The notes under the pieces are model-generated. The model had not been told where the DNA came from and did not search any database. It saw only the letters and a program-made list of their open reading frames with translations. From contig CATOTF010000002.1 in the NCBI GenBank assembly GCA_951813045.1, positions 3,162,001-3,226,000 of the forward strand: DNA of 64,000 bases, in the 5' to 3' direction. The translations under genes and the position numbers were made by a program. Below are positions 41,004 to 59,913 of this stretch, piece by piece. This DNA is from an uncultured Rhizobiaceae bacterium (GTDB lineage Bacteria; Pseudomonadota; Alphaproteobacteria; Rhizobiales; Rhizobiaceae). The stretch's first letter is position 1; each line of letters opens with the position of its first letter.

Positions 41004-41726
41004 TCACGTTTGCAATGAAGTTGAATATCCAAGCCAATCTCCCAGCGCATCGTTCACCGCCAACGGATTTTCAAGTGTCGTGATATGCCCCGCATCGGGT
41101 ACAATCACCAGATGGCTGGTCGGCAGTAATGTGTGAATTTCCCGGTGTCGACTTACGGGGCACGGTTGATCATGTTCCCCACATAATACAAGTGTGTGTC
41201 CGTCGTAGCCGCTCAACACGACCGTTGCATCCTGCCGCGCCATCAGAGCCGTCGCCTGCGCCTCGAAAACCCGGGGGCCTAAGGTCTCAGCCATCTCCAT
41301 AAATACCGCGTTTAGTTCCGGATCACCCATATGTTGCGGCGCTACGTAAAATGGTTTCAACTCTTCCATCATCATGGACGATAGCTCCCCATTACGCGCG
41401 CGGCCAATCTGCCTGACCCGCATTTCCAGCCTATCATCAGCATCCGGCAGATGGTTGGTGTCCATCAGAGCCAAACGCTCAACACGGCCCGACGCCTGAC
41501 GCAGCATCTCCATGGCGATAATGCCACCCATGGAAAGCCCGCAAAGCGCAAACCGGTTGAAGTTGGTGCCGTTTAGAATGCGCGTTGCCATTTGTTCGAT
41601 TGAATCGTCAAAAACAGGCTCCGCAACTTCAATCGGGAATCTGTCCCCAAATTCAGCAATTTGCGGTGCAAACAAAAGGTGATTGCACATCAGCCCCGGC
41701 ACCAAAATCAAACCGTCAAATGGCAT
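41004..41726 (-). CDS. Alpha/beta hydrolase
   Basis: Cytoplasmic hydrolase of 240 aa. The nucleophile elbow is GLSMGG (Ser near residue 85), an acid residue is likely in LVLCGEHDQPCP, and the catalytic His is in VPDAGHITTLENP. The sequence resembles 3-oxoadipate enol-lactonase-like and esterase-like members. It is the last gene of the minus-strand operon that starts with the HisD-like gene, so it may open a lactone or ester made earlier in the pathway. Confidence 0.85.
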   Translation of the reverse strand: MPFDGLILVPGLMCNHLLFAPQIAEFGDRFPIEVAEPVFDDSIEQMATRILNGTNFNRFALCGLSMGGIIAMEMLRQASGRVERLALMDTNHLPDADDRLEMRVRQIGRARNGELSSMMMEELKPFYVAPQHMGDPELNAVFMEMAETLGPRVFEAQATALMARQDATVVLSGYDGHTLVLCGEHDQPCPVSRHREIHTLLPTSHLVIVPDAGHITTLENPLAVNDALGDWLGYSTSLQT

Positions 41727-41735
41727 TGTTGGATA

Positions 41736-42869
41736 TTAAACCCGGGCTGAAGCTAAAGCCGCCCCTTCGCTCATCGCCTTGAGTTTGGCATATGCAATTT
41801 CAGGGTCTACGGAGCCGTAACCTGCGAAAGTGCCAAACCCGCAATCGGACCCGGCAATAACTCGATCAGCGCCAACAATTTGCGCAAACCGCTCGACGCG
41901 TTGTGCGACAACTTCCCGGTGTTCGATGAAATTCGTCGTCGTATCAACCACACCGGGCATCAAAATCCTGTCGTCAGGAATTTCATTTTTACGGTCACGA
42001 AACACGGTCCATTCATGGGCATGACGCGGGTTCGAGGTTTCAAACAAAAGCGTTCGCGCTTTCGCCTTCATCAGGGTTGGGAACATCGTATCCATATCAA
42101 TATCGCAACAGTGGGGGCCTTCGTAGTTACCCCAACATATGTGAATTCGCACCCTGTCTTGTGGAATGTTTTCCAGCGCATGGTTCAGCACTTCAACATG
42201 CATGTCAGCAATTTTCACAAATTCAACATCGCTTAAATCTTCAAACAACATGTGGCGGGAAAGCGCAAGATCAGGACAATCCAACTGCAACTCAAGTCCG
42301 GCAGAGACGATTGTCTCATATTCTTCACGCATGGCACCGACCAGCGCCTCAAGGTATTTCTCACGGCTTGAATAATGAACATTTTGCAAAAACAGCGAGA
42401 TAACACCCGGTGAAGCTGCATTCATAAAGCCCCGTTCGGCACCGTGTTTCGCCATGGCCGATTTAAGATTGGCGATATCCTTATTCAATTCGTCCTGACC
42501 TTTAGACGTTACATCGCTTGTGCACTGTGGCCGAGCATAGGTCGGGGTGCCGCCACTTTCCGCAATACGTTTCAAAAATGTTGGAAACATTTTTAAATCG
42601 GCGGGTGCATTACGGTCACTGTCACCGGAAAACCCCGTGTAACGGTCTTTTACATAGGTGGCGTAGGAAATCTTCGATGTCTCCCCGTCCGAGACCACAC
42701 CGACACCGGCTTCCACCTGACGACGGACGGTCTCGTCGACCGCTTCCGTCATCGCCGCATCGAACTCACCTTGATCATATGGTTGCTCTTTTTCGCGGGC
42801 AAAAATAAAATCCACCACTTTTTGCGTACGTGGCAGCGAGCCCGCATGGGATGTGAGTATTTTTGTCAT
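41736..42869 (-). CDS. Cobalamin-independent methionine synthase (MetE C-terminal) family protein
   Basis: Cytoplasmic protein of 377 aa, half the length of MetE and covering only its catalytic C-terminal barrel. The zinc ligand set of the family is present: HIC in RIHICWGNYEGPH, the Glu in LLFETSNPRHAHEW and Cys in VIAGSDCGFGTF. The N-terminus LTSHAGSLPRTQKVVDF is typical of the COG0620 subgroup that also contains epoxyalkane:coenzyme M transferase. Without the folate-binding N-terminal half, true methionine synthesis is less likely; transfer or removal of a thiol- or methyl-linked group is possible. It lies in the NTF2-rich catabolic operon. Confidence 0.85.
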   Translation of the reverse strand: MTKILTSHAGSLPRTQKVVDFIFAREKEQPYDQGEFDAAMTEAVDETVRRQVEAGVGVVSDGETSKISYATYVKDRYTGFSGDSDRNAPADLKMFPTFLKRIAESGGTPTYARPQCTSDVTSKGQDELNKDIANLKSAMAKHGAERGFMNAASPGVISLFLQNVHYSSREKYLEALVGAMREEYETIVSAGLELQLDCPDLALSRHMLFEDLSDVEFVKIADMHVEVLNHALENIPQDRVRIHICWGNYEGPHCCDIDMDTMFPTLMKAKARTLLFETSNPRHAHEWTVFRDRKNEIPDDRILMPGVVDTTTNFIEHREVVAQRVERFAQIVGADRVIAGSDCGFGTFAGYGSVDPEIAYAKLKAMSEGAALASARV

Positions 42870-42913
42870 TCTGTCTCTCCTGATGCCTGTCGTTTTCGCG
42901 ACAAGACAATCCC

Positions 42914-43891
42914 CTAATTCAAATCCGTCGCCGTTGGTCCTGCGGGGTCATCCGTGTTGATCACACGGAACAAGCTGCAGGCCCCTGTCATACTCGGTTC
43001 CAGCGTATAGTTCGTACCCGGCGGCACCGCACTTGTGTCGCCGGGAGCAAGAGTTTTAACATTGCCGCTCCAGCCAAGGGTCCAATGGCCCTGATGAACT
43101 AAAAGGATATGATGGCGGCCGTCGCCACCCTGTTCACCGGTCAAAGAACCGCGTGTCAAAAATTCAGTTTCAAATCCTGGGCGGTCCCGCAGCATGCCGT
43201 CTTCGGCAATTACTTTCGCGGGCGCATCCGACGCCAACGCCATCATGTCCCAGTAACGGGCAACATAATAAGGCACGACTTCCGAAGAACTTGGCGAAGG
43301 ATAACGGCTAGCTTCATCGTCGCTCATGATCGGCATCGGCGATACACCATCAGGTAAGGCTTCACCTTTCTTGGTGTCATAAAGCTTGCCCGATTCCGCC
43401 AATACAAGGCCGTGATCCTGTGCATCCTGAATAACCTGCGGTGCCCAGATCACTCCTCCACCGGCATCATCACCGCCAAGAATAGCCATGATTATCCCAT
43501 AGTCCGTACCGATATTCTCAAACCCGCGAAATATGCCTGTGGGAATATTGATGATATCCCCTTCTTCCAGGGTAACTTCGCCGGACGTGCCGTAACGCCC
43601 CCAGAAAAACCGCCAGCGCCCTTTGTGGACATAAAACACTTCCGCTGTACGGTGACTGTGAAGTGAATTGCGGCATCTCGGTGGCTGCCCCGCAGCGCCA
43701 ATATTAAATCCCGGTGTTTCCTGAATATGGACATGCTGGTCGGCTGATTCAGATACACCACCGCCAATAATCGTAAAGTTTTCTTTTTGGTCGCTGCCCG
43801 GTGTATGAGCGTCAATAAACGCAGTTTTGCACGGCATAAGATCGCCATAACGAACAATACGGGCTTCCATTTGTTCCGGTGTCATGGTCAT
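42914..43891 (-). CDS. Bicupin domain protein
   Basis: Cytoplasmic protein of 325 aa with two cupin barrels. The first contains the metal-type motif NSLHSHRTAEVFYVHKGRWR followed by GDIINIPTGIFRGFEN; the second has HHILLVHQGHWTLGW and GDTSAVPPGTNYTLEPS and looks metal-poor. The layout resembles bicupin dioxygenases and isomerases, but no specific enzyme is recognisable. It lies 2 bases from the RidA gene in the operon. Confidence 0.82.
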   Translation of the reverse strand: MTMTPEQMEARIVRYGDLMPCKTAFIDAHTPGSDQKENFTIIGGGVSESADQHVHIQETPGFNIGAAGQPPRCRNSLHSHRTAEVFYVHKGRWRFFWGRYGTSGEVTLEEGDIINIPTGIFRGFENIGTDYGIIMAILGGDDAGGGVIWAPQVIQDAQDHGLVLAESGKLYDTKKGEALPDGVSPMPIMSDDEASRYPSPSSSEVVPYYVARYWDMMALASDAPAKVIAEDGMLRDRPGFETEFLTRGSLTGEQGGDGRHHILLVHQGHWTLGWSGNVKTLAPGDTSAVPPGTNYTLEPSMTGACSLFRVINTDDPAGPTATDLN

Positions 43892-43893
43892 GG

Positions 43894-44292
43894 TCAGTCC
43901 TCTGCCTTTGATGCGATTATCCGCAGTTCAACCAATGTGCCCGGTGTGACGAATCCCGTCACCTCAATTGCCGTCCAGGCTGGATACGGTTCAACCACAA
44001 ATTCACTTCGAATTTTACGGAACACATCGATGTGGTCCTGTATCGCTACGTGATAGGATGTCATTTCCAGAATGCTTGAAAAATCAAGGCCAGCTTCATT
44101 CAAGACTGATCGCACTCGTTCAAAGGCCAATCTGATTTGCCGAGCAGGATCGGGGTCAACGATGCCTCCTGGACCTGCTCCGGTCATACCAGTCAGAAAT
44201 ATAAAATTTCCATGTTCCAAGCCGGGTGACATGTTCCAATCACTCACATAACCTTCCATCCCGGACGGGACAATTGCAGATTTCTGATTCAC
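43894..44292 (-). CDS. RidA/YjgF family protein
   Basis: Small cytoplasmic protein of 132 aa. Family motifs are FIFLTGMTGAGPGG, RQIRLAFERVRSVLNEAGLD, SYHVAIQDHIDVFRKIR and YPAWTAIEVTGFVTPGTLVE. The canonical Arg of the RidA active site (usually in the P-x-R-T/S motif) is replaced by PAWTAIEV, so imine deaminase activity is uncertain. It is tightly packed between the cupin and NTF2 genes. Confidence 0.88.
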   Translation of the reverse strand: MNQKSAIVPSGMEGYVSDWNMSPGLEHGNFIFLTGMTGAGPGGIVDPDPARQIRLAFERVRSVLNEAGLDFSSILEMTSYHVAIQDHIDVFRKIRSEFVVEPYPAWTAIEVTGFVTPGTLVELRIIASKAED

Positions 44293-44293
44293 A

Positions 44294-45295
44294 TTATGCT
44301 CCCGTCTGCATCAAAATCTGTTTCCAGATCGCTACTTCATCATAAAGCGCGCATTCGCGGCGGATGGTTGCGTCCCCCTCTTGGCCGTTGGTGACAAAGG
44401 GCCCGTATTCCGCGTGGCACATGCCCATGACGTGTACATGAGCCCCGGTCGGTTTGCCGAAGGCGCCAACTCCTTCGTGCGCCCCGTCAAGCGACCACCT
44501 GATGGCGGCGCGCGGTGGCAACATATCACCGTCCAACCCAATCTGGTGATGAATTTTAAACGTTGCGTTCGGAAATGCTGAACGCAGAGCAAGCCAGAAT
44601 TCTTCAACCGGTCGCCAGGAAAGGCCGCTTTTTGCGCCTGTATATTCGCTCACAACCGCCCGGTCATAATCATCACGGATAATGTTAAAATCCTTATCCA
44701 TCAAGCGCTGCAAAGTTCGAGCGTATCGGGCACCCCATTCATTATCATTGCCAGTGCCGTGGTAACCACCATCGACGTCCTGATCAGGCGTAAAGGGCTT
44801 TGCGGCCCTATCCGCTCCCCCTTCACTTTTGATCAGCCTTTTGGCAAATTTCCTTGGGTCCATACCCAACTGTCTGACAATACCGCCGTGATCCCGAATC
44901 AGCCATTCATCAAAAATCGTGCCATCTTTTGCAGCGCAATCGGCGATCACACGAACGGTAAAGCGTTTGCCGGTTGCCTTTCCAAACAATCCATCACGCT
45001 CGTGAACACCCGTCGTGATGATGCGGTGGGATGACAGCAATCCGGTTTCGTGTTCACTCCATATCACATCTTCCCCGAACATCTCGCGGCTGGGAATCTC
45101 ATAGATCGTTCCCATGGTGGCGGAAATTACCTCTTGGTTTCCCCGCTGAATGCCCATGGGCGAGCGCACCGGTATGTCATCCGAATAATAATGATTCAGC
45201 GTTCCAACCCCGCGATCTTCCCAAATCTCCTTGGTGATCGCGATGATGTAGTCCGGGAAATCTTTCCACTGCTGCGAGAAACCCTTGATAGTCAA
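44294..45295 (-). CDS. Double-domain SnoaL/NTF2-like protein (ester-cyclase family)
   Basis: Cytoplasmic protein of 333 aa made of two NTF2-like domains (about 1-150 and 175-330). Domain 1 has LNHYYSDDIPVRSPMGIQRG and FDEWLIRDHGGIVRQLGMDP; domain 2 has PVEEFWLALRSAFPNATFKI and ALYDEVAIWKQILMQTG. The SnoaL/ester-cyclase group carries out ring closures, isomerisations or water additions on small acids and polyketides. It is the most divergent of the four NTF2-like proteins in this locus. It starts 12 bases after the SDR gene. Confidence 0.8.
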   Translation of the reverse strand: MTIKGFSQQWKDFPDYIIAITKEIWEDRGVGTLNHYYSDDIPVRSPMGIQRGNQEVISATMGTIYEIPSREMFGEDVIWSEHETGLLSSHRIITTGVHERDGLFGKATGKRFTVRVIADCAAKDGTIFDEWLIRDHGGIVRQLGMDPRKFAKRLIKSEGGADRAAKPFTPDQDVDGGYHGTGNDNEWGARYARTLQRLMDKDFNIIRDDYDRAVVSEYTGAKSGLSWRPVEEFWLALRSAFPNATFKIHHQIGLDGDMLPPRAAIRWSLDGAHEGVGAFGKPTGAHVHVMGMCHAEYGPFVTNGQEGDATIRRECALYDEVAIWKQILMQTGA

Positions 45296-45307
45296 AATGT
45301 TATTCCT

Positions 45308-46075
45308 TTAATCGGCGGTCCAGCCGCCATCGATTATAATACTTGTTCCGGTAATCAGCGCACTGGCATCGCTTGCCAAAAACACGACCGCACCCATGAT
45401 GTCTTCCACTTCGCCGACCCGCCCCAGCTTGATTTTCTCTTCAAGCCAAGCGACTCGCTCGGGGTCGTCGAATGTGCTCTGGGTCATTGGCGTGCGAATA
45501 AATGTGGGGCAGATCGTGTTGACTCGAATTTTGTGCGCTGCCAGTTCAATCGCAGAGGCTTTGGTCACCCCTTCGATGCCGAATTTCGACCCGCAATAGA
45601 CCGCACGGTCGATGCCGCCCACATGGGCCATCTGGCTTGAAGTGTGGATGATTGAACCCTGTTTACCGGCTCCAATCATACCTTTGGCAACTTCCTGCGC
45701 GACGAAAAACGCGGCCTTGAGATTGAGGTCCGTAATCATCTCAAAATTCTCAGGCGTCACATCCACGTAGGGCGTCGGCACATTCGTACCCGCATTGTTG
45801 AACAGAATATCAAACGGCCCATATTGGCGAATTTTGGAAACCATTGTGGGATAGTCACCCACGTCCAAAGAAACACTTTCTGCAGAATAACCCGCATCAC
45901 GCACGGCTTGCGCAGCAGCGCCAATCTCTTCGGCATTGCGCGCAGCCATCACAACATGGGCACCGTGCTCAGCCAATGCCATTGCACCACCGAGACCGAT
46001 GCCCCGTGACGCTCCGGTAACGAGCGCGCGTTTGCCATTGAGTTGAAAAGTCGGAGTGCGGGGAAGTGTGGTCAT
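45308..46075 (-). CDS. Short-chain dehydrogenase/reductase
   Basis: Cytoplasmic oxidoreductase of 255 aa. TGASRGIGLGGAMALAEHGA (cofactor site), NNAGTN, the catalytic Ser in IIHTSSQMA, YCGSK for the Tyr-Lys pair and RVNTICPTFIRTPMT are all canonical for classical SDRs. Resembles gluconate 5-dehydrogenase/3-oxoacyl reductase-like enzymes. Third place in an operon with the HisD-like enzyme suggests oxidation of a polyol or sugar acid, as inference. Confidence 0.88.
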   Translation of the reverse strand: MTTLPRTPTFQLNGKRALVTGASRGIGLGGAMALAEHGAHVVMAARNAEEIGAAAQAVRDAGYSAESVSLDVGDYPTMVSKIRQYGPFDILFNNAGTNVPTPYVDVTPENFEMITDLNLKAAFFVAQEVAKGMIGAGKQGSIIHTSSQMAHVGGIDRAVYCGSKFGIEGVTKASAIELAAHKIRVNTICPTFIRTPMTQSTFDDPERVAWLEEKIKLGRVGEVEDIMGAVVFLASDASALITGTSIIIDGGWTAD

Positions 46076-46116
46076 ATAATTTGCGCCTATCGTCGGGTTA
46101 GATACTGTTGATGATC

Positions 46117-47445
46117 TTATTCAGCCGCATCTGTAACAGGCTCTGCCGCCGCACCATAGGGGATGTTACGACCACCGTAACGGCGTACGCGGATGTTGCA
46201 TTGCTCCGCATGGCCAACAAACCCTTCAAGCATGCAAAGACGCGAACCGACCTCGCCAATGTCCGCAGCGGCTTCATCAGTGAGCACCTTTTGATAGGAA
46301 TGGGTCTTCAGGAACTTACCGACCCAAAGGCCACCCGTGTAACGCCCGGCTTTTTTAGTGGGCAGCGTGTGGTTGGTGCCGATGACCTTATCCCCATTGG
46401 AAACATTGGTGCGTGCGCCGAGGAACAGGGCTCCGTAACAGGTCATGTTTTCCAGGAACCAGTCATCCCGGTCGGTCATCACTTGCACGTGTTCCGAGGC
46501 AATATCGTCGGCTACCTGCAACATCTCTTCATAGGTATCGCAAACGATCACCTCGCCATAATCCTCCCAGCTTTTAGACGCTGTATCAGCGGTTGGTAGA
46601 ATTTTGAGGATCCGCTCAATCTCAGACATCGTATCTCGGGCGAGTTTTTCCGAGTTGGTCAACAGGACAGCCGGGGAGTTGCAGCCATGTTCCGCCTGAC
46701 CCAGGAGGTCTGTTGCGCACAATTCCGCATCCACTGTTTCATCGGCGATCACCATAGTTTCCGTCGGCCCGGCAAACAGGTCTATGCCCACACGGCCAAA
46801 CAACTGCCGCTTAGCTTCCGCGACAAAGGCATTGCCGGGGCCAACAATCATGTGGCACGGGTCAATTGTCTGTGTGCCAAGCGCCATCGACCCAACCGCC
46901 TGAATGCCCCCCATAACATAAATTTCGTGAGCACCACCGAGCTTCATCGCCGTAACAATCGCCGGGTGCGGTTCACCGTTTTGAGGTGGAGCCGACGCAA
47001 CAATGCGTGGCACACCCGCGACAGATGCCGTCAAGACGGACATATGGGCGGAAGCCACCATGGGAAATTTGCCGCCGGGTACATAACACCCAACAGATTG
47101 AACGGGGATATTCTTGTGGCCCAGCACCACACCGGGTAGCGTCTCGACCTCAATATCCGTCATCGACGCCCGTTGCGCCTGCGCAAAATTTCGGATCTGG
47201 GACTGGGCAAATTTAATATCATCCATATCCCGCGATGAAACTTTGCTCATTGCAGTTTCAATTTCTGAATCGCTCAATCGGAAACGCTCTGGCGCGTAAT
47301 TATCGAATTTTTGCGACAATTCGCGAACCGCCGCATCGCCACGTGTTTCAATATCCTTGAGAATCGCCTCAACAGTTGACCTAACCTTGGCATCATCTTC
47401 GGCGCGCGCCTCGTCGCTACGGGCGGTTTTCAGGTGACGGATCAT
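46117..47445 (-). CDS. Histidinol-dehydrogenase family enzyme (non-biosynthetic paralogue)
   Basis: Cytoplasmic zinc- and NAD-dependent dehydrogenase of 442 aa; HisD family members oxidise a primary alcohol to a carboxylate in two steps. Conserved features are [38 protein letters not shown] (zinc ligands Gln and His), ASEHVQVM (the catalytic Glu-His pair) and NHTLPT. It lies outside any his operon and next to SDR, NTF2 and GMC genes, as with the sulfopropanediol 3-dehydrogenase branch, so the substrate is probably not histidinol. A perfect LacI-type palindrome lies 48 bases upstream of its start. Confidence 0.85.
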
Positions 47446-47492
47446 TGTTTAACTCCGAATTCTAACAGGCATTATGTCAAAGAGTACGAGGC

Positions 47493-47510
47493 TTTGCATA
47501 CGTATGCAAA
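47493..47510. promoter_or_regulatory. LacI-type operator of the catabolic locus, site 1
   Basis: Perfect 18-bp palindrome TTTGCATACGTATGCAAA with central CG, 48-65 bases upstream of the HisD-like gene. The inner 16 bases are identical to the site at 55205-55220. The nearby LacI protein (56402-57406) is the likely binder. Confidence 0.82.
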
Positions 47511-47545
47511 CCCCTTGTTATAGATTTATGGCGCGACGTTTCAGC

Positions 47546-48091
47546 TCAGCGTCTCCACGGAAGTTGATCGGGGCGGAAATCCCGTTTTGGGTTCTCGGTG
47601 AAATTCTCCCAACCGTGTCCCGAAAACACGTCCACGCCCAATTGCCTCATGATATCGGGGAAATCGACCATCACCCAATTATCAATGATCTTCCCATCCA
47701 CCACTTTCCAAAAATCCATATATCGGATCACAACTTTTTTCCCGGACGACTCGATTCCCATAAACGGGCCTGAATGAACCGCCTCCTGTCGTCCAAACGC
47801 AGCCGCCCATTCCCCGTCAAACAACCGCGCTTCATCGATGCACACTTTTTCGGAAAATGCCGCCTGGAATGGTTTTTGCCATGCCTCCTGAAATTCACGC
47901 AGGCCTGCCTTGAAGCCGCAACCGGCATTTCCCATCCAGCGAAAATCTTCAGCAAAAAACTCACCGATATCCGAAATTCGATGATCGTTTAATCCGTCAA
48001 CCATCCCTACGATGACCCGTTGCGTGTCTTCCGTTTTAGACCGGTCATTATCCGATGAGAGATAGGCCTGTTCGGGTCTTGCTCCGCTCAT
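47546..48091 (-). CDS. Single-domain SnoaL/NTF2-like protein
   Basis: Cytoplasmic protein of 181 aa with one NTF2-like domain (about 25-150). It resembles the C-terminal half of the 335-aa protein encoded at 49654-50661: FRWMGNAGCGFKAGLREFQE corresponds to MMWYGPAAFGSFIGIERFHS, and DNWVMVDFPDIMRQLGVDVF to ENWVFVDIPHVLLQMGYDLF. Start ATG 48091 follows GGGGAA. It is the last gene of the operon led by the sugar-binding protein. Confidence 0.78.
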   Translation of the reverse strand: MSGARPEQAYLSSDNDRSKTEDTQRVIVGMVDGLNDHRISDIGEFFAEDFRWMGNAGCGFKAGLREFQEAWQKPFQAAFSEKVCIDEARLFDGEWAAAFGRQEAVHSGPFMGIESSGKKVVIRYMDFWKVVDGKIIDNWVMVDFPDIMRQLGVDVFSGHGWENFTENPKRDFRPDQLPWRR

Positions 48092-48109
48092 ATTGGTTCC
48101 CCACTTTTG

Positions 48110-50688: not shown

Positions 50689-51738
50689 TTAGTCGATCCG
50701 TTCACCGCTATTGGCGTCGAAAAGGTGGCAGATGCTGGCGGGAATTTTTGTGTGAACTTCATCGCCAATTTTCGCGCGGTATTCTTTGCCTGCCTTGACT
50801 GAAACCAGGACACCGCCAACCCGAAAACTCACCATTGTTGCTTCACCGAGCAATTCCATGGAATAAACGGTTGCTTTCATCGCGCCTTTTGACGGTACGA
50901 TCTCAGAATCCTCGGCACGGAACCCAAGCGTCACCGGGCCAGAATGAGATTTTGGCAGGCCGGTTACTTTCACGCCTTCCGCTGTGAAAGTACCATTATC
51001 CAAACTGCCTTCAATCAGGTTCATCGCTGGAGAACCGATGAAGGCAGCTACAAATGTATTTGCCGGACGATCGTAGATCTCGACAGGCGTGCCCACCTGT
51101 TGAACGATACCCGCATTCATCACGACAACACGATCAGCCAATGTCATCGCTTCAATCTGATCGTGGGTCACATAGATCGTCGTGGTTGCCAGCGTATCCT
51201 GCAGGTTTTTAATCTGCGCCCGCGTTGAGACTCGTAATTTGGCGTCCAGGTTGGAAAGCGGTTCGTCCATCAAGAAGACGGTCGGTTCCCGCACAATCGC
51301 GCGGGCCAGAGCCACACGCTGACGCTGACCGCCGGATAATTCGGACGGACGGCGGTGGGTAAACTCGTTCAGTTCCACCATATCAACGGCCCGTTGCACC
51401 CGTTCTTGGTGCGTCGCAGGATCGACCTTGCGAACTTTTAATGGAAAACGAATATTTTCCCAAACGGTCATATTCGGGTAAAGGCCGTAGGACTGGAACA
51501 CCATCGCAATATCGCGATCTTTCGGCTCAAGATTATTAACGACACGGTCGCCGATCAATATGTCGCCGGTCGTTGCTTCTTCAAGCCCGGCAATCATGCG
51601 CATGGTTGTCGTCTTGCCACAGCCGGACGGGCCGAGCAGGACAAGAAATTCCTTATCGGCAATCTCAAGATTGAACTCCTGAACACCGACAAAATCACCC
51701 CAGCGTTTCGTCACATTATTCAATGTAATGCCGGCCAT
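50689..51738 (-). CDS. CUT1 sugar ABC transporter ATPase (UgpC/MalK-like)
   Basis: Cytoplasmic ATPase of 349 aa. Walker A GPSGCGKTTTMRMIAGLE, signature [15 protein letters not shown], Walker B VFLMDEPLSNLD, H-loop YVTHDQ, then a TOBE region (TLGFRAEDSEIVPSKGA). It energises the permease pair at 51745-53655. Family transports sugars, glycerol phosphate and polyols. Confidence 0.92.
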   Translation of the reverse strand: MAGITLNNVTKRWGDFVGVQEFNLEIADKEFLVLLGPSGCGKTTTMRMIAGLEEATTGDILIGDRVVNNLEPKDRDIAMVFQSYGLYPNMTVWENIRFPLKVRKVDPATHQERVQRAVDMVELNEFTHRRPSELSGGQRQRVALARAIVREPTVFLMDEPLSNLDAKLRVSTRAQIKNLQDTLATTTIYVTHDQIEAMTLADRVVVMNAGIVQQVGTPVEIYDRPANTFVAAFIGSPAMNLIEGSLDNGTFTAEGVKVTGLPKSHSGPVTLGFRAEDSEIVPSKGAMKATVYSMELLGEATMVSFRVGGVLVSVKAGKEYRAKIGDEVHTKIPASICHLFDANSGERID

Positions 51739-51744
51739 TATAAA

Positions 51745-52626
51745 TTACCCCTTCACTGCACCCGCTGTGAGACCACTCACAATCTGACGTTGAAAAAACA
51801 TGACAAGAACAAACAGCGGCGCGGTCGCCGAGACAACGGAAGCAACGGCAAACATGACATTGCCCTCCGTTTGTGTCGTTCCAAGAAAGCTCGCTATTTT
51901 CGGAACCATGGTCTGGTTCTCTTTCGCCAACAGCATCGTGGTCACCGCAAAATCATTATAGGCGAGCAGAAAAGAAAACAGCCCGGTTGTAATAACCCCC
52001 GGCCACATGACCGGAATGATGACATGGCGAAATGCCTGAAAACGGGTGCAGCCATCCACCATGGCGCTTTCATCCAGATCTTTTGGAATTTTCTGGAAGA
52101 AGGAATGCAGCATCCAGAGCGTGAACGGTTGGTTGATCGCTACAAGCACGATGATTGTCGTGGGCAATATTCCCCAGACATTCCATTCAAAGAACGGCAA
52201 CAAATAACCGGATACCAGCGTAATCGGTGGTAAAGCGCGAAACATCAACGCGATAATGAGCAGCCAGAATGTATAACGAAAGCCCGAACGTGACAGGGCA
52301 TAACCGCCGAGCGTTCCGATTGTCAGCGACGTACAGACTACGAAAAAACACACGATTGCGGTGTTGAGTACCGCTTTCCAGAACTCTTCCTTTACCCACG
52401 CCCCTTCATATCCGGTGCCCGTAAAAGGCGAACCGTAGACAACTTCGGTCCGGGCACCGGTCAGCGCGTTGGTCCAGTCGGCGATGGAGAAAAAATCCAA
52501 CTCAACCTTGAACGAACCCCAAAGGGTCCACACGAATGGGAATGCAGCGAGTATCAACCAGAAAATCACAAAGGTGCTGGAAAAGACGCGCAGGCCAATA
52601 GACTTTTGTTCAGCAGCGGCAGCCAT
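51745..52626 (-). CDS. CUT1 sugar ABC transporter permease (MalG-like)
   Basis: Inner-membrane permease of 293 aa with six helices (VFSSTFVIFWLILAAFPFVW first) and the EAA loop KDLDESAMVDGCTRFQAFRH. Three bases separate it from the upstream permease. The C-terminal end VSGLTAGAVKG is typical of MalG homologues. Confidence 0.92.
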   Translation of the reverse strand: MAAAAEQKSIGLRVFSSTFVIFWLILAAFPFVWTLWGSFKVELDFFSIADWTNALTGARTEVVYGSPFTGTGYEGAWVKEEFWKAVLNTAIVCFFVVCTSLTIGTLGGYALSRSGFRYTFWLLIIALMFRALPPITLVSGYLLPFFEWNVWGILPTTIIVLVAINQPFTLWMLHSFFQKIPKDLDESAMVDGCTRFQAFRHVIIPVMWPGVITTGLFSFLLAYNDFAVTTMLLAKENQTMVPKIASFLGTTQTEGNVMFAVASVVSATAPLFVLVMFFQRQIVSGLTAGAVKG

Positions 52627-52629
52627 TTC

Positions 52630-53655
52630 TTACACCTTCACCTTAAAGTCACGCCATGTGCGAACCAGCACTGGAGACAACAGAATTCCCACACCGATGA
52701 CGGTCAAAACCGATGTTGCGGCAGCCGAAGATAACAAGCGGGTTTCACCCCCCAGATCATTAAAAATAATCCAGGAAAGGGACGTCGCATGGGCTTCCGC
52801 ACTGAACCCGACAATCGGCTCGAACACTCGGAAATTATCCATCAACTGGATCAGTGCAACGAATGTGACCAGCGGCATAATGTGAGGGATAATCACATAA
52901 CGAATACGTTGCCAACGCGTCGCCCCGTCTATCATCGCCGATTCCAGCGTGTCCTGCGGAAGGGTTTGCAGGCCGGCATAGAAGACAACAAAAGCAAAAG
53001 GCGCCGCGTGCCAGATCCCGTAAACCATCAGCATAATCCAGGTCAGGCCGGTTGAGGCTTTTAGCGACAGGTTGGGATCATCGAATATCCATTGCAACCC
53101 GTTACCAAGTATTCCCCGTGAATCGATCATCCAGAACAGGATAAGCGACCCAATCAGCGGTGTAACAATCATCGGTAACAGGGAAAAGAAAATCACGAAT
53201 CCTTTGAGCTTTTGATTAAGCGCATTAACAGCAACCGCAATCATGAAACCCAAAATAATCGTCATCGGCGTTACAACCACGACAAAAGTGAGTGTAAACG
53301 ACATCGCCCGATAGAATGGCAGGTTTGTAATCGCAGAAAAGAAACCGCTTAGGCTATCGCGCGTCTTCCAAGACTCGGCAACCTCCTGAAAGGCTAGATG
53401 CCCGCGGTCAAGATATACCGACAGGCCTGCCCATTTGCCCAAGGGCTGATCTTCTCGAATTTTACGCGTTGCTTCCTGGTCAACGGTTACTTCCTTTTCA
53501 CAACCAAACGGACCGCAATTCTCAACTTCGACAATCACCTGGTCGTGGGCGGTGTGAAGGGATTGCGTCACGACGGATACGATTGGGAAAGCGATAAACA
53601 AAAGCATCGCCAATCCAGTCGGCAAGAAAAACCAGAAAAATGTGCTGTGCTTCAT
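52630..53655 (-). CDS. CUT1 sugar ABC transporter permease (MalF-like)
   Basis: Inner-membrane permease of 341 aa. N-terminal helix FFWFFLPTGLAMLLFIAFPI, a periplasmic insertion of about 70 residues with a Cys pair (VENCGPFGCEKE), and the EAA loop QDTLESAMIDGATRWQRIRY. It lies downstream of the hairpin after the binding-protein gene. Confidence 0.92.
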   Translation of the reverse strand: MKHSTFFWFFLPTGLAMLLFIAFPIVSVVTQSLHTAHDQVIVEVENCGPFGCEKEVTVDQEATRKIREDQPLGKWAGLSVYLDRGHLAFQEVAESWKTRDSLSGFFSAITNLPFYRAMSFTLTFVVVVTPMTIILGFMIAVAVNALNQKLKGFVIFFSLLPMIVTPLIGSLILFWMIDSRGILGNGLQWIFDDPNLSLKASTGLTWIMLMVYGIWHAAPFAFVVFYAGLQTLPQDTLESAMIDGATRWQRIRYVIIPHIMPLVTFVALIQLMDNFRVFEPIVGFSAEAHATSLSWIIFNDLGGETRLLSSAAATSVLTVIGVGILLSPVLVRTWRDFKVKV

Positions 53656-53773
53656 GGCAGGACCAACGGCTGGGGCGGATTATTTGAATAGTCGATGCGC
53701 CGTTACATCTGGTGTATTCACGTTTGAAAGGCATCGAGGCGGGAATTCAACCGAAGACTTTCAAACGGGAAAT

Positions 53774-53803
53774 AATGGGCGGGTGCACAGGCACCCACCC
53801 ATT
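53774..53803 (-). terminator. Intercistronic hairpin after the CUT1 binding-protein gene
   Basis: Arms AATGGGCGGGTGC (53774-53786) and GCACCCACCCATT (53791-53803) pair over 13 positions with one G-T wobble and a 4-base loop. It lies between the binding-protein gene and its permease genes, 12 bases after the stop. No U tract, so mRNA 3'-end protection or partial termination is likely. Confidence 0.65.
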
Positions 53804-53814
53804 AAAAACGGCCC

Positions 53815-55062
53815 TTATTTCAGGAAGCCTTTTTCCTTTGCAGCTGCGATGTAGGCAGCTTCAACGTCTGCCAGAGTTTTAGCAGCGTCTTCTTTACCCT
53901 GCATATAGTCTGGAAGTTCTGCACCCAGCGCAGTGTGCAACAGGCCCTGGAACGGACGCATTGGGTAAGGCTTGGTGCCCATTTCAGCTGCGGCAAACAC
54001 ACCCTTAGCAGCATCTGTTGGCTTATAACCATCGATCAACCAAACAGCCTGTTTGGCAATTTCATCATCACCAAGAATACTCGGATTGATAGCGTTCATC
54101 ATTGCCTTGAAGGTTGCTTCCGCATCCTCATCTGATGTGTTCTTTGAAACAGTCCAGCCATCCCACCAAAGTGTGGTCGCGGGAATTGATCCGCCCCCAA
54201 CGGTCATTGGGGCAGCGATGTCAGTGTTATCAACCACTTCTTGCGAAGAACCTTCGGTGTCTTTCAGCGGGCCAACACGTGAACCCCACATGTTCATAAT
54301 GGCGACATTGCCGGCTTTCCATTCGGCAGACGTTGCGTTTGAATCATGCGTCAGGAAGTCCGGGTTCATGTAGCCAGACAGGTCTTTCATCATTTTAAGG
54401 GCAGCAGCGCCCTGTTCATTGTTGATGGAGACTTCGGCAGTACCAGGTTTGAAGAATTCGCCACCGTAACCGATGTACATATTGTTGAATTCTTGTGCGA
54501 GGTTCCAACCGGCAGCATAAGCACCGCCAACAGGGTTCTGCATCAGGCCCTTGTCACGGATGATTTTGGCAGCAGCCAGCATATCTTCGTATGTTTTTGG
54601 TGGCTCAACACCGGCCTTTGCCAGAATGTCCTTACGGTAAACCAGGTGCTGTGCATTCGCCATAAAGGCGACAGCCATCACTTTACCGTCGATTGAAATC
54701 AGCTGATTCTTTTTCAGATCCTTTCCGTATTTAGCAATGAAATCGTCCAATGGACGGATCAGATCTTCATTCATCAACGCGACAATCGAAGAATTGGCAA
54801 CGATAGCAGATGTATATTCGGCCGGGTTGCTGGACATGCCCGCAACGTTAATTTTCTGGTGGTCTGCTGTGAGGTTTGTTTTAACTTCAACGCCATCACC
54901 GGCACAGGCTTGCGCCCCTTTACCGATCGTCTGAATTGCGGGGAATTCGTTCCCAACCACATTGACCCGGCCTTTGCTGATATCACAAGCAGCATATGCA
55001 GCCGTACTTGCTGCCGACGCCATCAATGCAAGTGAAGCGGCCATAAGAGTTTTTTTAATCAT
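53815..55062 (-). CDS. CUT1 sugar ABC transporter substrate-binding protein
   Basis: Periplasmic binding protein of 415 aa with a Sec signal peptide (LMAASLALMASAASTAAYA). Typical family 1 features are DGVEVKTNLTADHQKINVAG, YRKDILAKAGVEPPKTYEDM and AAALKMMKDLSGYMNPDFLT. The ligand is unknown, but the family binds sugars, polyols or glycerophosphodiesters. Head gene of the operon that also encodes two NTF2-like proteins and the GMC oxidoreductase. Confidence 0.92.
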   Translation of the reverse strand: MIKKTLMAASLALMASAASTAAYAACDISKGRVNVVGNEFPAIQTIGKGAQACAGDGVEVKTNLTADHQKINVAGMSSNPAEYTSAIVANSSIVALMNEDLIRPLDDFIAKYGKDLKKNQLISIDGKVMAVAFMANAQHLVYRKDILAKAGVEPPKTYEDMLAAAKIIRDKGLMQNPVGGAYAAGWNLAQEFNNMYIGYGGEFFKPGTAEVSINNEQGAAALKMMKDLSGYMNPDFLTHDSNATSAEWKAGNVAIMNMWGSRVGPLKDTEGSSQEVVDNTDIAAPMTVGGGSIPATTLWWDGWTVSKNTSDEDAEATFKAMMNAINPSILGDDEIAKQAVWLIDGYKPTDAAKGVFAAAEMGTKPYPMRPFQGLLHTALGAELPDYMQGKEDAAKTLADVEAAYIAAAKEKGFLK

Positions 55063-55204
55063 ATTTAGTCTCCCAGTTGTTTAAGGCACATGTGCCCTTA
55101 ATTTTTAGGTCGACATTCCTGCGACCAAGATATTAAGCCAGACCTCATGGTGCTATGTAACAATCCACGATCAAGCCTTTTCTCTTTCCCAAGGAAACCA
55201 TTTA

Positions 55205-55220
55205 TTGCATACGTATGCAA
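55205..55220. promoter_or_regulatory. LacI-type operator of the catabolic locus, site 2
   Basis: Perfect 16-bp palindrome TTGCATACGTATGCAA, identical to the core of the site at 47493-47510. It lies in the divergent control region between the binding-protein operon (start 55062) and the NTF2-like gene (start 55280), so one repressor could control both directions. Confidence 0.84.
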
Positions 55221-55279
55221 CGGTAAATTTTATCGATGCGCGCTAAGCTACCCGTCTGCACCATTAACAGGTTGTTATT

Positions 55280-56398
55280 ATGAATAAAAACGGTTCCATA
55301 ACCATCCCTCAGGATGTCAATTTAACCAACAAATTACGGATTCGCGACGCGATGGCAAAAATTGTCGATGCGGACAATCGCACCGTCGAAAATGTGCTGG
55401 AAAATATCTACGACAATAACGCAGTTTGGCGCGGTTCCCATCCACTTAATGAGACGACCGGGCCTGCCGAGATTGCTGACACCGTTTGGAAGCCCCTAAA
55501 AGTGAGTTTTCCCGATCTTGAACGACGTGACGAGATTTTAGTTGGCGGGCGCTATACCAATAAACACGGACAAACCCGGGATATGGTTGCCGCCATCGGC
55601 CATTACTGCGGCACGTTCAAAAAAGACTGGCTGGATATTCCCGCAACCGGCCAGCCGGTGTTCCTGCGTTATGGCGAGGTCCATGAATTGCAGGATGGCA
55701 AGATCATCCGTTCGTCTTGCCTTTGGGATGTTCTTGATCTGATACGTCAGGCCGGCTTCTGGCCTCTCGCCCCAAGCTGGGGGACGGAAGGCCGCTGGAT
55801 GGGCCCCATAACAGCAGATGGCATTGTGCTGAGCGAACAGGATATGGATGAAGGCCTCGGCTCAATTGCTCAAACACTCGCCATGCACAAAAGCCTCTCC
55901 GAATATAATGACGGAGCGATGGCGGGGCGCGATGGTCTCATTAACATGCCTCAAAAAGAGTACTGGCATGAAAAAATGATGTGGTACGGCCCGTCCGGCA
56001 TCGGAACCACCCGGGGGCTGGAAGGGTTTGTAGACTTTCACCAACTCCCTTTCCGCCTTACATGGCCCGGAAGAAAAGGCGGCCAGGTCCTCACGAATGT
56101 CGAAGATACATCCGACGCCGGTCATTACATTCAGATTGGCGACGGAAAATATTCCGTCACCGGTGGGTGGCCCAGCGTCATGGCGGTGAACAACGGCACC
56201 GGCGACGTTTTTGGGTGTGGCCCAACGGGAAAACCGGTTGGCATGCGGGTTATGGATTTTTATCTCCACCACGAAGGTAAAATTCGCGAAAACTGGGTAC
56301 CCATTGATGTGATTCATATCCTGTTGCAACAGGGCGTCGATGTCATGGGCCGTGTGCGCGACCAATTTGGGCGCAACCGGCTGGGCCTTCGGAATTAG
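55280..56398 (+). CDS. Double-domain SnoaL/NTF2-like protein
   Basis: Cytoplasmic protein of 372 aa with two NTF2-like domains. Domain 1 includes ENIYDNNAVWRGSHPLNETT and ends SCLWDVLDLIRQAGFWPL; domain 2 includes MMWYGPSGIGTTRGLEGFVD, GDGKYSVTGGWPSVMAV and ENWVPIDVIHILLQQGVDVM, closely matching the 335-aa paralogue at 49654-50661. It is divergent from the transporter operon, with a LacI-type operator between. The enzymatic role is unknown; its presence as a third double-domain member suggests successive steps on related compounds. Confidence 0.78.
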   Translation: MNKNGSITIPQDVNLTNKLRIRDAMAKIVDADNRTVENVLENIYDNNAVWRGSHPLNETTGPAEIADTVWKPLKVSFPDLERRDEILVGGRYTNKHGQTRDMVAAIGHYCGTFKKDWLDIPATGQPVFLRYGEVHELQDGKIIRSSCLWDVLDLIRQAGFWPLAPSWGTEGRWMGPITADGIVLSEQDMDEGLGSIAQTLAMHKSLSEYNDGAMAGRDGLINMPQKEYWHEKMMWYGPSGIGTTRGLEGFVDFHQLPFRLTWPGRKGGQVLTNVEDTSDAGHYIQIGDGKYSVTGGWPSVMAVNNGTGDVFGCGPTGKPVGMRVMDFYLHHEGKIRENWVPIDVIHILLQQGVDVMGRVRDQFGRNRLGLRN

Positions 56399-56401
56399 CC
56401 A

Positions 56402-57406
56402 CTATTTCGGAAGTTTAGACGATCCGCGAACGATTAACCGAGCGGGCAAAACCGCAGCGCGGCGTTTTGCTGATGTCCCATCGATCTGATCAATCAGGAT
56501 TTCCACGGTCGCATCAATCATCGCTTCGCCCGGTTGTTCGACGGTTGTGAGATCATAAGCACCCCATGAAGCCTGAGGTACGTCATCATATCCAACGACG
56601 GAAACATCGCCAGGAATGTTCAAATGAAGTTCGTTTCGAATTACATCCATCACCGCAAAAGCCATATGGTCATTAGCAACAAAAATCGCATCGGGTTTTT
56701 CAGGTGCAGCAAATAACACGCGCGCCGCAGCCGCAGCCGCTTCCTGTGTATACGCGCCAACAGACCGCGAATGGCAGACCGCACCGCGCTCCGCTAATCC
56801 CTTATAAAACCCCGCCTCTCGATCCCGGTTGGTTGATGAATCTTCATAACCGGCAATGAAAGATATACGCTCATGACCACCGTCGACGAGGAAATTGCCG
56901 ATCAGACGTCCCCCTTCGACATTGTCGGATGTAACAGAATTGGATGGTGACGAGATGACGTAACGGTTGAACAATACTACCGGAATACCATTATCCATGC
57001 ACCTTTGCGCAAGGTGTGAAGAAAGATGAGCCGACGCCATCACCACACCTTCCACCTGATATTGCAACATGTCCTGAACGACTGCGTCCTGATCCCCCGG
57101 ATCACTCATAAACAGCAGAACCCGATAGCCTTTTGACTGAAGCGATCGGGAGAGTTTTTCGATCACGACAGGGTAAAACTGATTATCGAGGTAGGCGACG
57201 AGAACGCCGATGATCCCGGATTTCCCGCTGATCAGGGAACGCGCCAGCGCATTGGGCCGATAGCCCAGCTCATCAGCCGCTTTGGTAACCCGAAGCCGCG
57301 TTTCCTGTGATACCGACGCACCAGCGGTAAAGGTACGGCTCACCGCGGATTGAGAAACCCGGGCAAGACGCGCGACATCGGCTGAGGTAACAGTTGGTTT
57401 CGCCAT
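56402..57406 (-). CDS. LacI-family transcriptional regulator of the catabolic locus
   Basis: Regulator of 334 aa. Helix-turn-helix TSADVARLARVSQSAVSRTF, hinge GYRPNALARSLISGK with the minor-groove Leu, and a sensor domain (IIGVLVAYLDNQFYPVVIEK, VSVVGYDDVPQASWGAYDLT). It lies at the end of a locus that contains two perfect LacI-type palindromes, which are its probable targets. The ligand is presumably the transported compound or an early intermediate. Confidence 0.9.
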   Translation of the reverse strand: MAKPTVTSADVARLARVSQSAVSRTFTAGASVSQETRLRVTKAADELGYRPNALARSLISGKSGIIGVLVAYLDNQFYPVVIEKLSRSLQSKGYRVLLFMSDPGDQDAVVQDMLQYQVEGVVMASAHLSSHLAQRCMDNGIPVVLFNRYVISSPSNSVTSDNVEGGRLIGNFLVDGGHERISFIAGYEDSSTNRDREAGFYKGLAERGAVCHSRSVGAYTQEAAAAAARVLFAAPEKPDAIFVANDHMAFAVMDVIRNELHLNIPGDVSVVGYDDVPQASWGAYDLTTVEQPGEAMIDATVEILIDQIDGTSAKRRAAVLPARLIVRGSSKLPK

Positions 57407-57414
57407 CGCGCATT

Positions 57415-57428
57415 TGTGTCACGACACA
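57415..57428. promoter_or_regulatory. Inverted repeat upstream of the LacI gene
   Basis: TGTGTC-AC-GACACA, a perfect 6-bp inverted repeat with a 2-base spacer, 9 bases upstream of the LacI start and 139 bases before the ThDP gene. It differs from the TTGCATACGTATGCAA operators, so it may bind a different regulator or be chance. Confidence 0.4.
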
Positions 57429-57566
57429 GATTGACCTGCAATCAACAATTAGACGTGCCGCACATCATGTTGAGCGAAAAAAGCTTGCAACAGTAGGGAC
57501 TCAGTCTAAAAAGCCTCCGAAGTGGTCCAATTGATGGATGCTGCAATTCAACAATATGGACATCAA

Positions 57567-59207
57567 ATGACAAAGCCCCAAACCGCAGAATTGACCGGTG
57601 CCCAGATTATCGCCTCCAAGCTGAAGCAAGCAGGCTGCACCCGCGCCTTCGGTATTCCGGGCGGCGAAGTGCTGGCCATTATGGGCGCCCTTGATGATAC
57701 GGGAATCGAGTTTCATCTGGCAAAACATGAAAACGCCGCCGGGTTTATGGCGGAAGGGGCATGGCATGCGGAACCCGTCGGTTCCCGCGCGCCCGGCATC
57801 CTGCTGGCCACCATCGGCCCGGGCGTCGCCAATGCGGTCAACGTCATCGCCAATGCGATGCAGGACCGTGTGCCGCTGATCTTCCTGACGGGTTGTGTGG
57901 AAACTGCAGAAGCGGAAACCTATACCCATCAGGTTTTCGACCATCAGGCGATGTTGCGCCCGATAGTCAAGGCAAGCTTTCGCGCATCATCCGGCACGGT
58001 CGGCGTAATGATGGAAAAAGCTCTCGCCATCGCGTTTGAAGGTCAACCCGGCCCTGTCCACATAGACGTGCCAATTGGTGTCGCGGAAGAAGTCAGCGAA
58101 GAGCTTTTGCGCGACCTGCCTGCTCTATCCGGTCCAACCATGGTGGCCCCTACCCCTTTGCTTGGGGAAGCTATTGAGGCTCTAAACAACGCTCAACGCC
58201 CATTGGTTATTGCCGGTGTGGATGCTGTTCAGGAAGGGGCCGGGCCGGCGCTCGCGGATTTCTGCGAAAAACACAGCATTCCGCTTTTGACCACCTATAA
58301 GGGCAAAGGCCTGATGCCGGAAAACCACGCGCTTTGCCTGGGCGGTCACGGGCTATCTCCCAAAGCCGACAAAATCCTCATGCCGTTGATCCAACTGGCG
58401 GATTGTATTCTGCTTGCCGGTTACGACCCCATCGAAATGCGCACCGGCTGGCGCAACCCGTGGGGTGACGACGCCAAAATCATCGAGATCACCCCAGGCC
58501 TGCGCACCCACGGCATGCACCGTGTTGACATCACGTTACAGGCGTCCATCGAACCAACATTGGCCCAAATCAATCATGGTATGGATTCAACGCAGCGCTG
58601 GCCCGATGACGAAGCAACTTCTGCGAAAAATGCGTTGGAGGACTGTTTTACCGCGCCGGGCGACTGGGGCCCCGGACAGGTTTTCGAAACCCTCAACAAG
58701 ACATTGCCACACGATACGGTGATCACGGCGGACTCCGGTGCCCACCGCATCCTGCTCTCCCAAACTTGGCAAAGCACGCGTCCCCACGCATTCCTTCAAT
58801 CCACCGCACTCTGCACCATGGGCTGCGCGGTTCCCCTCGCCGCCGGTTATAAAATGGCAAGCCCCAACACACCCGTCTGCGCCTTTGTCGGCGATGCCGG
58901 ACTGGAAATGGGGCTGGGAGAACTGGCTACCGTCCGCGAAATGAAACAACCGCTGATCATCTGCGTACTCGTCGATGAATCGCTTGCACTGATCGAGCTA
59001 AAACAGCGTGGCAGCCAGCGCAAGAATGTCGGCGTGGACTTTCCCGGCACAGATTTCGTCGGCTTAGCCAACGCCATGGGTGGCCACGGCGTCTGGGTCG
59101 ACGACGTCGAAACCCTGAAGGAACAGGCAAAGGCCGCACAATCCCGTAACACCTACACCCTTCTAGCCTGCCGCATCAGCCGCCGCGCCTATGATGGGGC
59201 TTTTTGA
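57567..59207 (+). CDS. Thiamine-diphosphate-dependent enzyme (acetolactate-synthase family)
   Basis: Cytoplasmic ThDP enzyme of 546 aa; start ATG 57567 is preferred, with ATG 57534 and GTG 57522 possible. The N-terminal domain has the catalytic Glu in LAKHENAAGFMAEGAWHAEP; the middle domain is Rossmann-like; the C-terminal ThDP site is VGDAGLEMGLGELATVREMK, with VDES in place of the usual NN. Reactions in the family include decarboxylation, carboligation and acyl transfer to 2-oxo acids. It is divergent from the LacI gene. Its last 15 codons recur at 61289-61330 beyond an IS630 island. Confidence 0.85.
   Translation: MTKPQTAELTGAQIIASKLKQAGCTRAFGIPGGEVLAIMGALDDTGIEFHLAKHENAAGFMAEGAWHAEPVGSRAPGILLATIGPGVANAVNVIANAMQDRVPLIFLTGCVETAEAETYTHQVFDHQAMLRPIVKASFRASSGTVGVMMEKALAIAFEGQPGPVHIDVPIGVAEEVSEELLRDLPALSGPTMVAPTPLLGEAIEALNNAQRPLVIAGVDAVQEGAGPALADFCEKHSIPLLTTYKGKGLMPENHALCLGGHGLSPKADKILMPLIQLADCILLAGYDPIEMRTGWRNPWGDDAKIIEITPGLRTHGMHRVDITLQASIEPTLAQINHGMDSTQRWPDDEATSAKNALEDCFTAPGDWGPGQVFETLNKTLPHDTVITADSGAHRILLSQTWQSTRPHAFLQSTALCTMGCAVPLAAGYKMASPNTPVCAFVGDAGLEMGLGELATVREMKQPLIICVLVDESLALIELKQRGSQRKNVGVDFPGTDFVGLANAMGGHGVWVDDVETLKEQAKAAQSRNTYTLLACRISRRAYDGAF
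59164..59188. repeat. 25-bp direct repeat, left copy (end of ThDP gene)
   Basis: A 25-base block at the 3' end of the ThDP gene that reappears exactly at 61289-61313, on the far side of the island. The similarity continues imperfectly to the stop codon, with both copies ending TGATACG. Confidence 0.85.
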
Positions 59208-59906: not shown

Positions 59907-59913
59907 CTTTTGA

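Follow-up and report, generated by a model that had tools for sequence, protein, structure and literature searches.

When genes for an importer, a regulator and a mixed set of enzymes lie side by side, do they form one catabolic system, and what compound does that system consume? This question is raised by a locus of an uncultured Rhizobiaceae bacterium, which we examined within a window of 64,000 nucleotides (the whole stretch of DNA that was analysed; G000:C2:3162001-3226000 of a 4.84-Mb genome). The locus encodes a CUT1 importer, a LacI-family regulator, a HisD/HpsN-like NAD dehydrogenase (HISD), an SDR dehydrogenase, a bicupin (CUP), a core-MetE-like protein (METE) and four NTF2-like proteins. 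We conclude that known enzyme families are combined here into a catabolic system that is widely conserved and uncharacterised, and that is likely a regulon. Judging from sequence comparisons, it appears moderately probable that a LacI-type regulator controls these genes and that they serve to break down a marine metabolite which is methylated, bears a CH2OH group and resembles a ring compound or a sugar. No paper describing this cluster or pathway was recognised in the open-licence PMC literature, as far as its partial texts extend.

Conservation and layout of the cluster

To decide whether the locus is a unit, we surveyed 151 genomes of the family. The two-domain NTF2-like protein NTFA2 (44294-45295, minus strand) has a match in 18 of these genomes at E<=0.001 and in 16 at an identity of at least 54%, while METE (41736-42869, minus strand; PF01717) has a match in 19 at E<=1e-60 and in 17 at an identity of at least 58%. 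Both proteins occur together in 15 genomes (hypergeometric probability 1.2e-17, uncorrected for kinship), and HISD (E<=1e-130), which is present in 40 genomes, was found in 15 of the 16 NTFA2-positive ones. The neighbourhoods of the family matches contain mostly the same genes side by side. Since the gene order is kept between genomes, the locus is one unit and more than a chance neighbourhood. A sequence-only reading of the same DNA had proposed a catabolic unit with its own importer and regulator, and had named scattered homologues as the result that would count against it; the homologues are clustered rather than scattered.

A scan of named genomes with the METE alignment confirmed at least 587 relatives, and the best 80 of these were analysed as loci (L039 and L083 are probably one and the same stretch). 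Their hosts, mostly marine as judged by name, include Roseobacters, Rhizobiaceae, Planktomarina, HTCC2255, SB2, SAR116 and Thioglobus/SUP05, and also Granulosicoccus, Porticoccaceae and Devosia. For 62 of the 80 loci at least 9 kb upstream of METE could be inspected, and with identity thresholds applied we found there HISD in 58 loci, an A-type NTF2 protein in 58, CUP in 57, the SDR in 57, a LacI gene (at least 45% identity) in 54, CUT1 parts in 54 and a single-domain NTF2 protein in 51. On the downstream side, 74 loci with at least 2.5 kb contained an alpha/beta hydrolase gene in 46 cases and a gene for an RraA-family protein in 44. Bicupin, LacI, SDR, HISD, CUT1 and either hydrolase or RraA were jointly present in 38 of 61 loci.

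The open reading frames named in the sequence-only reading are all present at the positions it gave, and its estimate of about 16 genes becomes 17 once the LacI gene on the minus strand (56402-57406) is counted. Operon 1 (minus strand, 47445-41004) encodes HISD (46117-47445), the SDR (45308-46075), NTFA2, a RidA-family protein (43894-44292), CUP (42914-43891), METE and an alpha/beta hydrolase (41004-41726). Operon 2 (minus strand, 55062-47546) encodes the solute-binding protein (53815-55062), a UgpA-like permease (52630-53655), a MalG/UgpE-like permease (51745-52626), a UgpC-type ATPase (50689-51738), the two-domain protein NTFC2 (49654-50661), a GMC oxidoreductase (48110-49657) and the single-domain SnoaL-like protein NTFB1 (47546-48091). 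Located on the plus strand are the two-domain protein NTFD2 (55280-56398), divergent from the importer, and a thiamine diphosphate (ThDP) enzyme resembling acetolactate synthase (57522-59207).

Pfam assigned a family to all ten proteins scanned, among them the bicupin, the RidA-family protein, the GMC oxidoreductase and NTFA2, NTFB1 and NTFC2. When 18 proteins including a flanking exporter were scanned with NCBIfam, no match was obtained for the bicupin or for two of the two-domain NTF2 proteins, and the matches of the solute-binding protein, the permeases, NTFD2, LacI and the ThDP enzyme were all below cut-off. The CUT1 importer set is complete, with a UgpC/MalK-type ATPase that exceeds its curated cut-off (NF008653, 452 bits versus 432), two permeases and a solute-binding protein of very weak UgpB/NgcE likeness. 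The SDR drew 25 listed NCBIfam models (e.g. glucose 1-dehydrogenase and KduD), all below cut-off, and the hydrolase (PF00561/PF12697) has a PcaD likeness far under cut-off. NTFA2 is a core component by conservation, and NTFC2, the best label in 6 of the 80 loci, is a variable one. No RNA family matched across 40500-60000, and NTFA2 had no match in phage records.

Not every gene of the stretch shares this conservation. Among the 80 METE loci the RidA-family gene occurs in none, the ThDP gene in one (27% identity), the GMC gene in nine and the flanking MsbA-like exporter gene in five (three at 75-79% and two at 26-32%), and we therefore ruled out ThDP, RidA and the exporter as core parts. RidA and GMC look accessory. 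The ThDP gene, upstream of which no operator was found within three mismatches, is probably a neighbour that does not belong to the system. Just past it lie two adjoining open reading frames (60131-61224, minus strand), each presumably one half of a gene for an IS630-type transposase.

A candidate operator and its distribution

The palindrome TTGCATACGTATGCAA was found by pattern search before both operons: putative operator O1 (47494-47509) precedes the HISD operon, and putative operator O2 (55205-55220) lies between the importer operon and NTFD2. This would agree with the expectation of the sequence-only reading that the operators answer to one regulator, as the two sites appear to be of one type. 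In the window there are three matches with at most three mismatches against 0.33 expected, the one at 22322 having three. The whole genome contains four sites with at most two mismatches, against one for a reversed control; the calculated chance expectation is about 1.3 sites at this level and 0.06 at one mismatch or fewer.

The other two of the four genomic sites lie outside the cluster. One, with two mismatches, ends 46 bases before a gene for an RraA-family protein (RRAA), about 930 kb from the cluster, and this protein is 57% identical to the RraA encoded at the cluster end in Ruegeria, Octadecabacter and others. RRAA, encoded outside the window, is one correction to the set of parts given by the sequence-only reading, the poorly conserved ThDP gene being the other. 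The other site, with one mismatch (G000:C2:2180566-2180581; L149:10566-10581), lies between an mtgE-type gene (PRK07534, 505 bits versus 338), about 80 bases before it, and a divergent desaturase-like gene, about 70 bases before that one. MtgC-like and MttB-family genes, both below cut-off, are near by, and the site is found at the same place in two close relatives, G151 and G152.

We also searched 28 other genomes, all picked as holding the cluster or parts of it, and found sites with at most one mismatch in 24 of them, whereas the reversed control gave none in any of the 28. The surroundings were inspected for 13 stretches from ten genomes: eight sites fall within the cluster, or parts of it, or adjoin them, the mtgE-type position accounts for two, two more (one each in G151 and G152) lie behind the 3' end of a gene, and one, in G151, precedes another gene for a solute-binding-protein-like protein. 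In 108 cluster loci, some of them overlapping, there are 37 sites with at most one mismatch, distributed over 23 loci, as compared with a mean of 0.37 and a maximum of 2 for 30 control palindromes. Since a LacI gene is present in the cluster of most relatives, the LacI-family protein, which has a sub-cut-off likeness to RbsR, is the likely reader of the putative operator.

Core enzymes and candidate substrates

Among solved structures HISD is closest to HpsN, and it keeps the catalytic Glu-His and the Zn-site Asp of that enzyme, aligned with E318, H319 and D352 of CpHpsN. In HpsN, the last His of the motif GRY(A/S)H binds both Zn and the sulfonate (PMC11382572, in the part available). HISD has GKFPM at this position, and also lacks the GSAPL motif of HisD, so that by motif it is of neither type; among 62 related HISD hits, KFPM was read in 52, KYPL in 2 and KYPM in 1, and 7 were unread by the pattern. 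The TIGR00069 model is passed with 435 versus 243.8 bits, but this model does not separate the types. A role in histidine biosynthesis is unlikely in view of the motif, the context and two further HisD-like genes in the genome (46%, G000:C2:274510-275799, and 32% identical to HISD), and 2,3-dihydroxypropane-1-sulfonate (DHPS) was ruled out as substrate because the HpsN motif is absent. With the catalytic residues kept and the sulfonate motif changed, HISD is predicted to act on a primary alcohol that has a hydroxyl or amine neighbour, in a compound with no sulfonate at its other end.

DHPS degradation, encoded by hpsN and hpsO in Roseobacters and Cupriavidus, shares with the present cluster a HisD-fold NAD dehydrogenase with conserved Glu-His and Asp and an SDR, but differs in the motif and in the CUT1 importer, NTF2, bicupin, MetE-like and RraA proteins that are added here. 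The likeness would suit a substrate with a glyceryl group, such as an N- or O-methylated glyceryl ether or glycoside (e.g. a betaine-lipid head group), on which HISD and the SDR would act like HpsN and HpsO, the latter being an SDR (PMC11131964, in excerpt), and sarcosine-oxidase-like or DmdA-like genes do occur near some clusters. We nevertheless consider a glyceryl substrate quite unlikely: it leaves the NTF2 set, the bicupin and RRAA without a role, and methyl-amine genes are rare, with the SOXA label in 7 and the SOXB label in 3 of the 80 loci, two of the SOXA labels being DmdA-like proteins.

In METE, the residues H242, C244, E276 and C342, which we take to be the Zn site of MetE, do not vary in any of the 15 aligned proteins. 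The criterion for core-MetE is a set of four Zn-site residues, Cys, His, Cys and Glu (PMC12478193, in the part available). As METE keeps all four, the methyl group is probably accepted by a thiol, and the suggestion of the sequence-only reading that a MetE-like enzyme handles a methyl group gains support. METE differs from core-MetE methyltransferases in being encoded in a catabolic cluster together with an importer and a LacI gene. Could it simply be a methionine synthase that is kept near the cluster, and not a demethylase of the substrate? The Zn-site residues are those of core-MetE, and one operator-like site lies near the mtgE-type gene, which encodes a module of the split methionine synthase (same paper, as far as accessible). 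A repressor site would be an odd feature for a gene on which methionine supply depends. METE itself is tied to the cluster, and we regard this possibility as unlikely.

The bicupin carries an invariant HxHxxxE motif (H77, H79 and E83). By sequence it has no relative among solved structures at E<=0.1, and its model (mean predicted local distance difference test, pLDDT, 86) loosely resembles MncA, quercetinase, oxalate decarboxylase, salicylate dioxygenase and seed storage proteins, with template-modelling (TM) scores of about 0.5. The two cupin domains and HxHxxxE are shared with the quercetin and salicylate dioxygenases, oxalate decarboxylase and MncA, from which CUP differs by an invariant Arg in place of the third His. 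In RRAA, R128 and D129, presumably the Arg-Asp active-site pair of RraA-family class II aldolases, are invariant in 9 of 9 aligned rows, LigK included. The sequence-only reading had assigned the C-C cleaving step to the ThDP enzyme, an assignment that its presence in a single locus does not bear out; the bicupin and the RraA-family protein are the likelier enzymes for it.

The end of the cluster also invites comparison with the end steps of gallate/protocatechuate 4,5-cleavage, where LigK acts. An RraA-family protein stands at the end in both cases, and in Croceicoccus a METE homologue (51%) lies within 9 kb of aminomethyltransferase, MTHFR, purU, folD, ligK and ligA genes; in contrast, the Ruegeria RRAA is only 24% identical to LigK, and none of the 80 loci contains a LigB label. 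A plain LigK identity for RRAA is not supported by its score. Likewise, an amidohydrolase of Ruegeria was rejected as a LigJ hydratase, since its sole NCBIfam match is L-fuconolactonase, below cut-off (110 versus 400 bits). In two Ruegeria and one Shimia the gene for this amidohydrolase adjoins an NTF2 gene. Together with the SDR and RraA, the enzyme could point to an O-methylated sugar or sugar acid that is broken down by an oxidative sugar-acid route; a CUT1 importer and a LacI protein with RbsR likeness would suit such a compound. Such a substrate seems improbable to us, given that the core has no kinase, isomerase or sugar-acid dehydratase, that the multiplicity of NTF2 proteins is left without explanation and that the amidohydrolase occurs within the flanks of 1 of the 80 METE loci.

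The sequence-only reading correctly counted four NTF2-like proteins in the window; three are two-domain proteins with SnoaL-like halves and one is a single-domain protein. The NTFA2 model (mean pLDDT 93) consists of two NTF2 domains, which singly fit IdmH well (TM 0.77 by target), whereas the first listed whole-chain match, Lsd19, is loose (TM 0.32, root-mean-square deviation 18, identity 12%). The proteins thus resemble the SnoaL, Lsd19, MonB and IdmH enzymes in the fit of single domains and in the alignment of Lsd19 over the whole NTFA2 chain, and differ from them in the looseness of that alignment, in the catabolic setting and in the presence of several paralogues per cluster. The number and kind of these paralogues vary between the clusters of different genomes. 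A plasmid of the saltern haloarchaeon Halobellus limi (L053, 8747-15140) carries an uninterrupted series of five ester-cyclase (NTF2) genes, with a METE homologue after them, and on a plasmid of Vibrio pelagius (L056, 6461-22139) a CUT1 importer and four NTF2 genes adjoin sarcosine oxidase genes.

From these parts a route can be proposed in which the CUT1 importer would bring the compound into the cell, the SnoaL-like NTF2 proteins would remove or rearrange varied side groups, HISD would turn a CH2OH with a neighbouring hydroxyl into a carboxylate, METE would transfer a methyl group onto a thiol, the bicupin would use oxygen to open a C-C bond, and the RraA-family protein would yield central metabolites by a last aldol cleavage. 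The alpha/beta hydrolase may act on esters or hydrolyse C-C bonds. The best single candidates for the substrate are the mycosporine-like amino acids. Their core, 4-deoxygadusol, has a hydroxyl and a CH2OH at C5, a methyl ether at C2 and, in the amino acid derivatives, amino-acid groups at C1/C3. The NTF2 enzymes would strip the amino acids to yield 4-deoxygadusol, HISD would convert the C5-CH2OH to a C5 carboxylate, and METE would demethylate the C2 enol ether, leaving a cyclic reductone. The bicupin would then split C2=C3 with oxygen, in the manner of acireductone or quercetin dioxygenase, to give HOOC-CO-CH2-C(OH)(COOH)-CH2-COOH, i.e. 4-carboxy-4-hydroxy-2-oxoadipate, and the RraA aldolase would release pyruvate and oxaloacetate, the products of the aldolase for this acid. 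The known aldolase of this acid belongs to the RraA family (3noj), and the carbon count of the scheme closes. Aromatisation to 4-O-methylgallate was ranked behind direct cleavage, as the core showed no dioxygenase of the gallate type.

A mycosporine-like amino acid or gadusol is a possible, though doubtful, identity for the substrate. With this substrate all core enzymes apart from the SDR and the hydrolase would have a definite job, the many NTF2 paralogues would suit many side chains, and the bicupin fold matches include quercetin and salicylate dioxygenases. The hosts are mostly marine by name, and the combinations of METE with five NTF2 genes in Halobellus limi and of CUT1 with four in Vibrio pelagius would also fit. 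According to a review available in part (PMC3083659), V. harveyi was suggested to convert shinorine and porphyra-334 to mycosporine-glycine by hydrolysing their side groups, and bacterial formation of 4-deoxygadusol is cited. Set against this are the looseness of the bicupin matches, which extend to MncA, oxalate decarboxylase and seed storage proteins, and the distance of RRAA from LigK. Moreover, we know of no CUT1 importer for mycosporine-type compounds. That the gene set mineralises mycosporine-like amino acids in Roseobacters, SAR116, Thioglobus and Rhizobiaceae, by the full scheme through 4-carboxy-4-hydroxy-2-oxoadipate, we regard as rather unlikely.

Balance of the evidence and meaning of the cluster

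A number of observations weigh against a methyl-removing, ring-opening regulon of this kind. As to the operator, perfect copies closely follow the 3' end of a presumably haloalkane-dehalogenase-like gene in G151 (L185:8950-8963) and G152 (L189:8905-8918), and some sites may therefore not be operators. Only 2 of the 28 other genomes showed the mtgE-type site (13 stretches inspected), which is also shared with the divergent desaturase gene. At up to two mismatches the 108 loci contain 58 sites against a control mean of 5 and a maximum of 24, the controls being noisier at this level, and 85 of the 108 loci show no operator with at most one mismatch, partly because of clipped flanks. The same-genus genome G082 has no operator with at most one mismatch, and its HISD gene lies on a separate contig. 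As to the enzymes, ring-cleaving dioxygenases usually have three His in their cupin metal motif, at the third of which the bicupin has the invariant R121; the Ruegeria RRAA scores 29.7 bits against a LigK equivalog cut-off of 304.5; and the SDR and GMC enzymes have no step in the mycosporine scheme. In Aminobacter, Pararhizobium, Sulfitobacter and Agrobacterium, HISD and the SDR are also found with none of NTF2, cupin and METE. As they are found alone elsewhere, this pair is a general module that says little on the substrate.

A second version of the cluster, found in Sinorhizobium medicae, Martelella and Roseibium, likewise counts against it: CUT1, HISD, SDR, LacI, bicupin, hydrolase and RraA are in common, an amidase and another two-domain NTF2 protein are added, and the stretches that were read showed no METE. 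In Devosia pacifica (L106) METE and the amidase are both present. Given the amidase version without METE in those stretches, METE and the amidase may handle different decorations of a common core. Mycosporine-glutaminol, which comes from fungi and terrestrial cyanobacteria according to sources available in part, would suit the amidase version; yet the lack of METE in the stretch read, in a soil Sinorhizobium, speaks against a mycosporine. Of the interpretation given by the sequence-only reading, the catabolic unit, the importer, the regulator and the methyl-handling MetE-like enzyme are retained, whereas cleavage by ThDP and the participation of RidA are abandoned.

Some genes were seen only as neighbours. 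DmdA-like genes lie downstream of the cluster in SAR116 (L123:9932-11113) and Planktomarina (L098:11963-13162), where the model for dimethylsulfoniopropionate demethylase stays below cut-off, and past the cluster of Ca. Thioglobus (L127:20585-21127) there is the start of a DddP-like gene, truncated by the end of the locus and also below cut-off. The Vibrio sarcosine oxidase genes and the SAR116 and Planktomarina DmdA-like genes adjoin few clusters, and were not accepted as parts.

If the mycosporine reading is true, the cluster would be a bacterial gene set for mineralising algal sunscreens; the open-licence PMC literature, in its partial texts, yielded no described mycosporine-degradation gene set for comparison. 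The cluster also suggests an ordered, testable pathway, and its putative operator could be used to find the inducer. For cosmopolitan marine bacteria, the function of whose core-MetE homologues has been called questionable (PMC12478193, in the part available), the cluster would offer these proteins a role. Finally, since a cluster of roughly 20 kb is kept even in a 1.2-Mb Thioglobus assembly (completeness not stated), a widespread marine substrate is implied.

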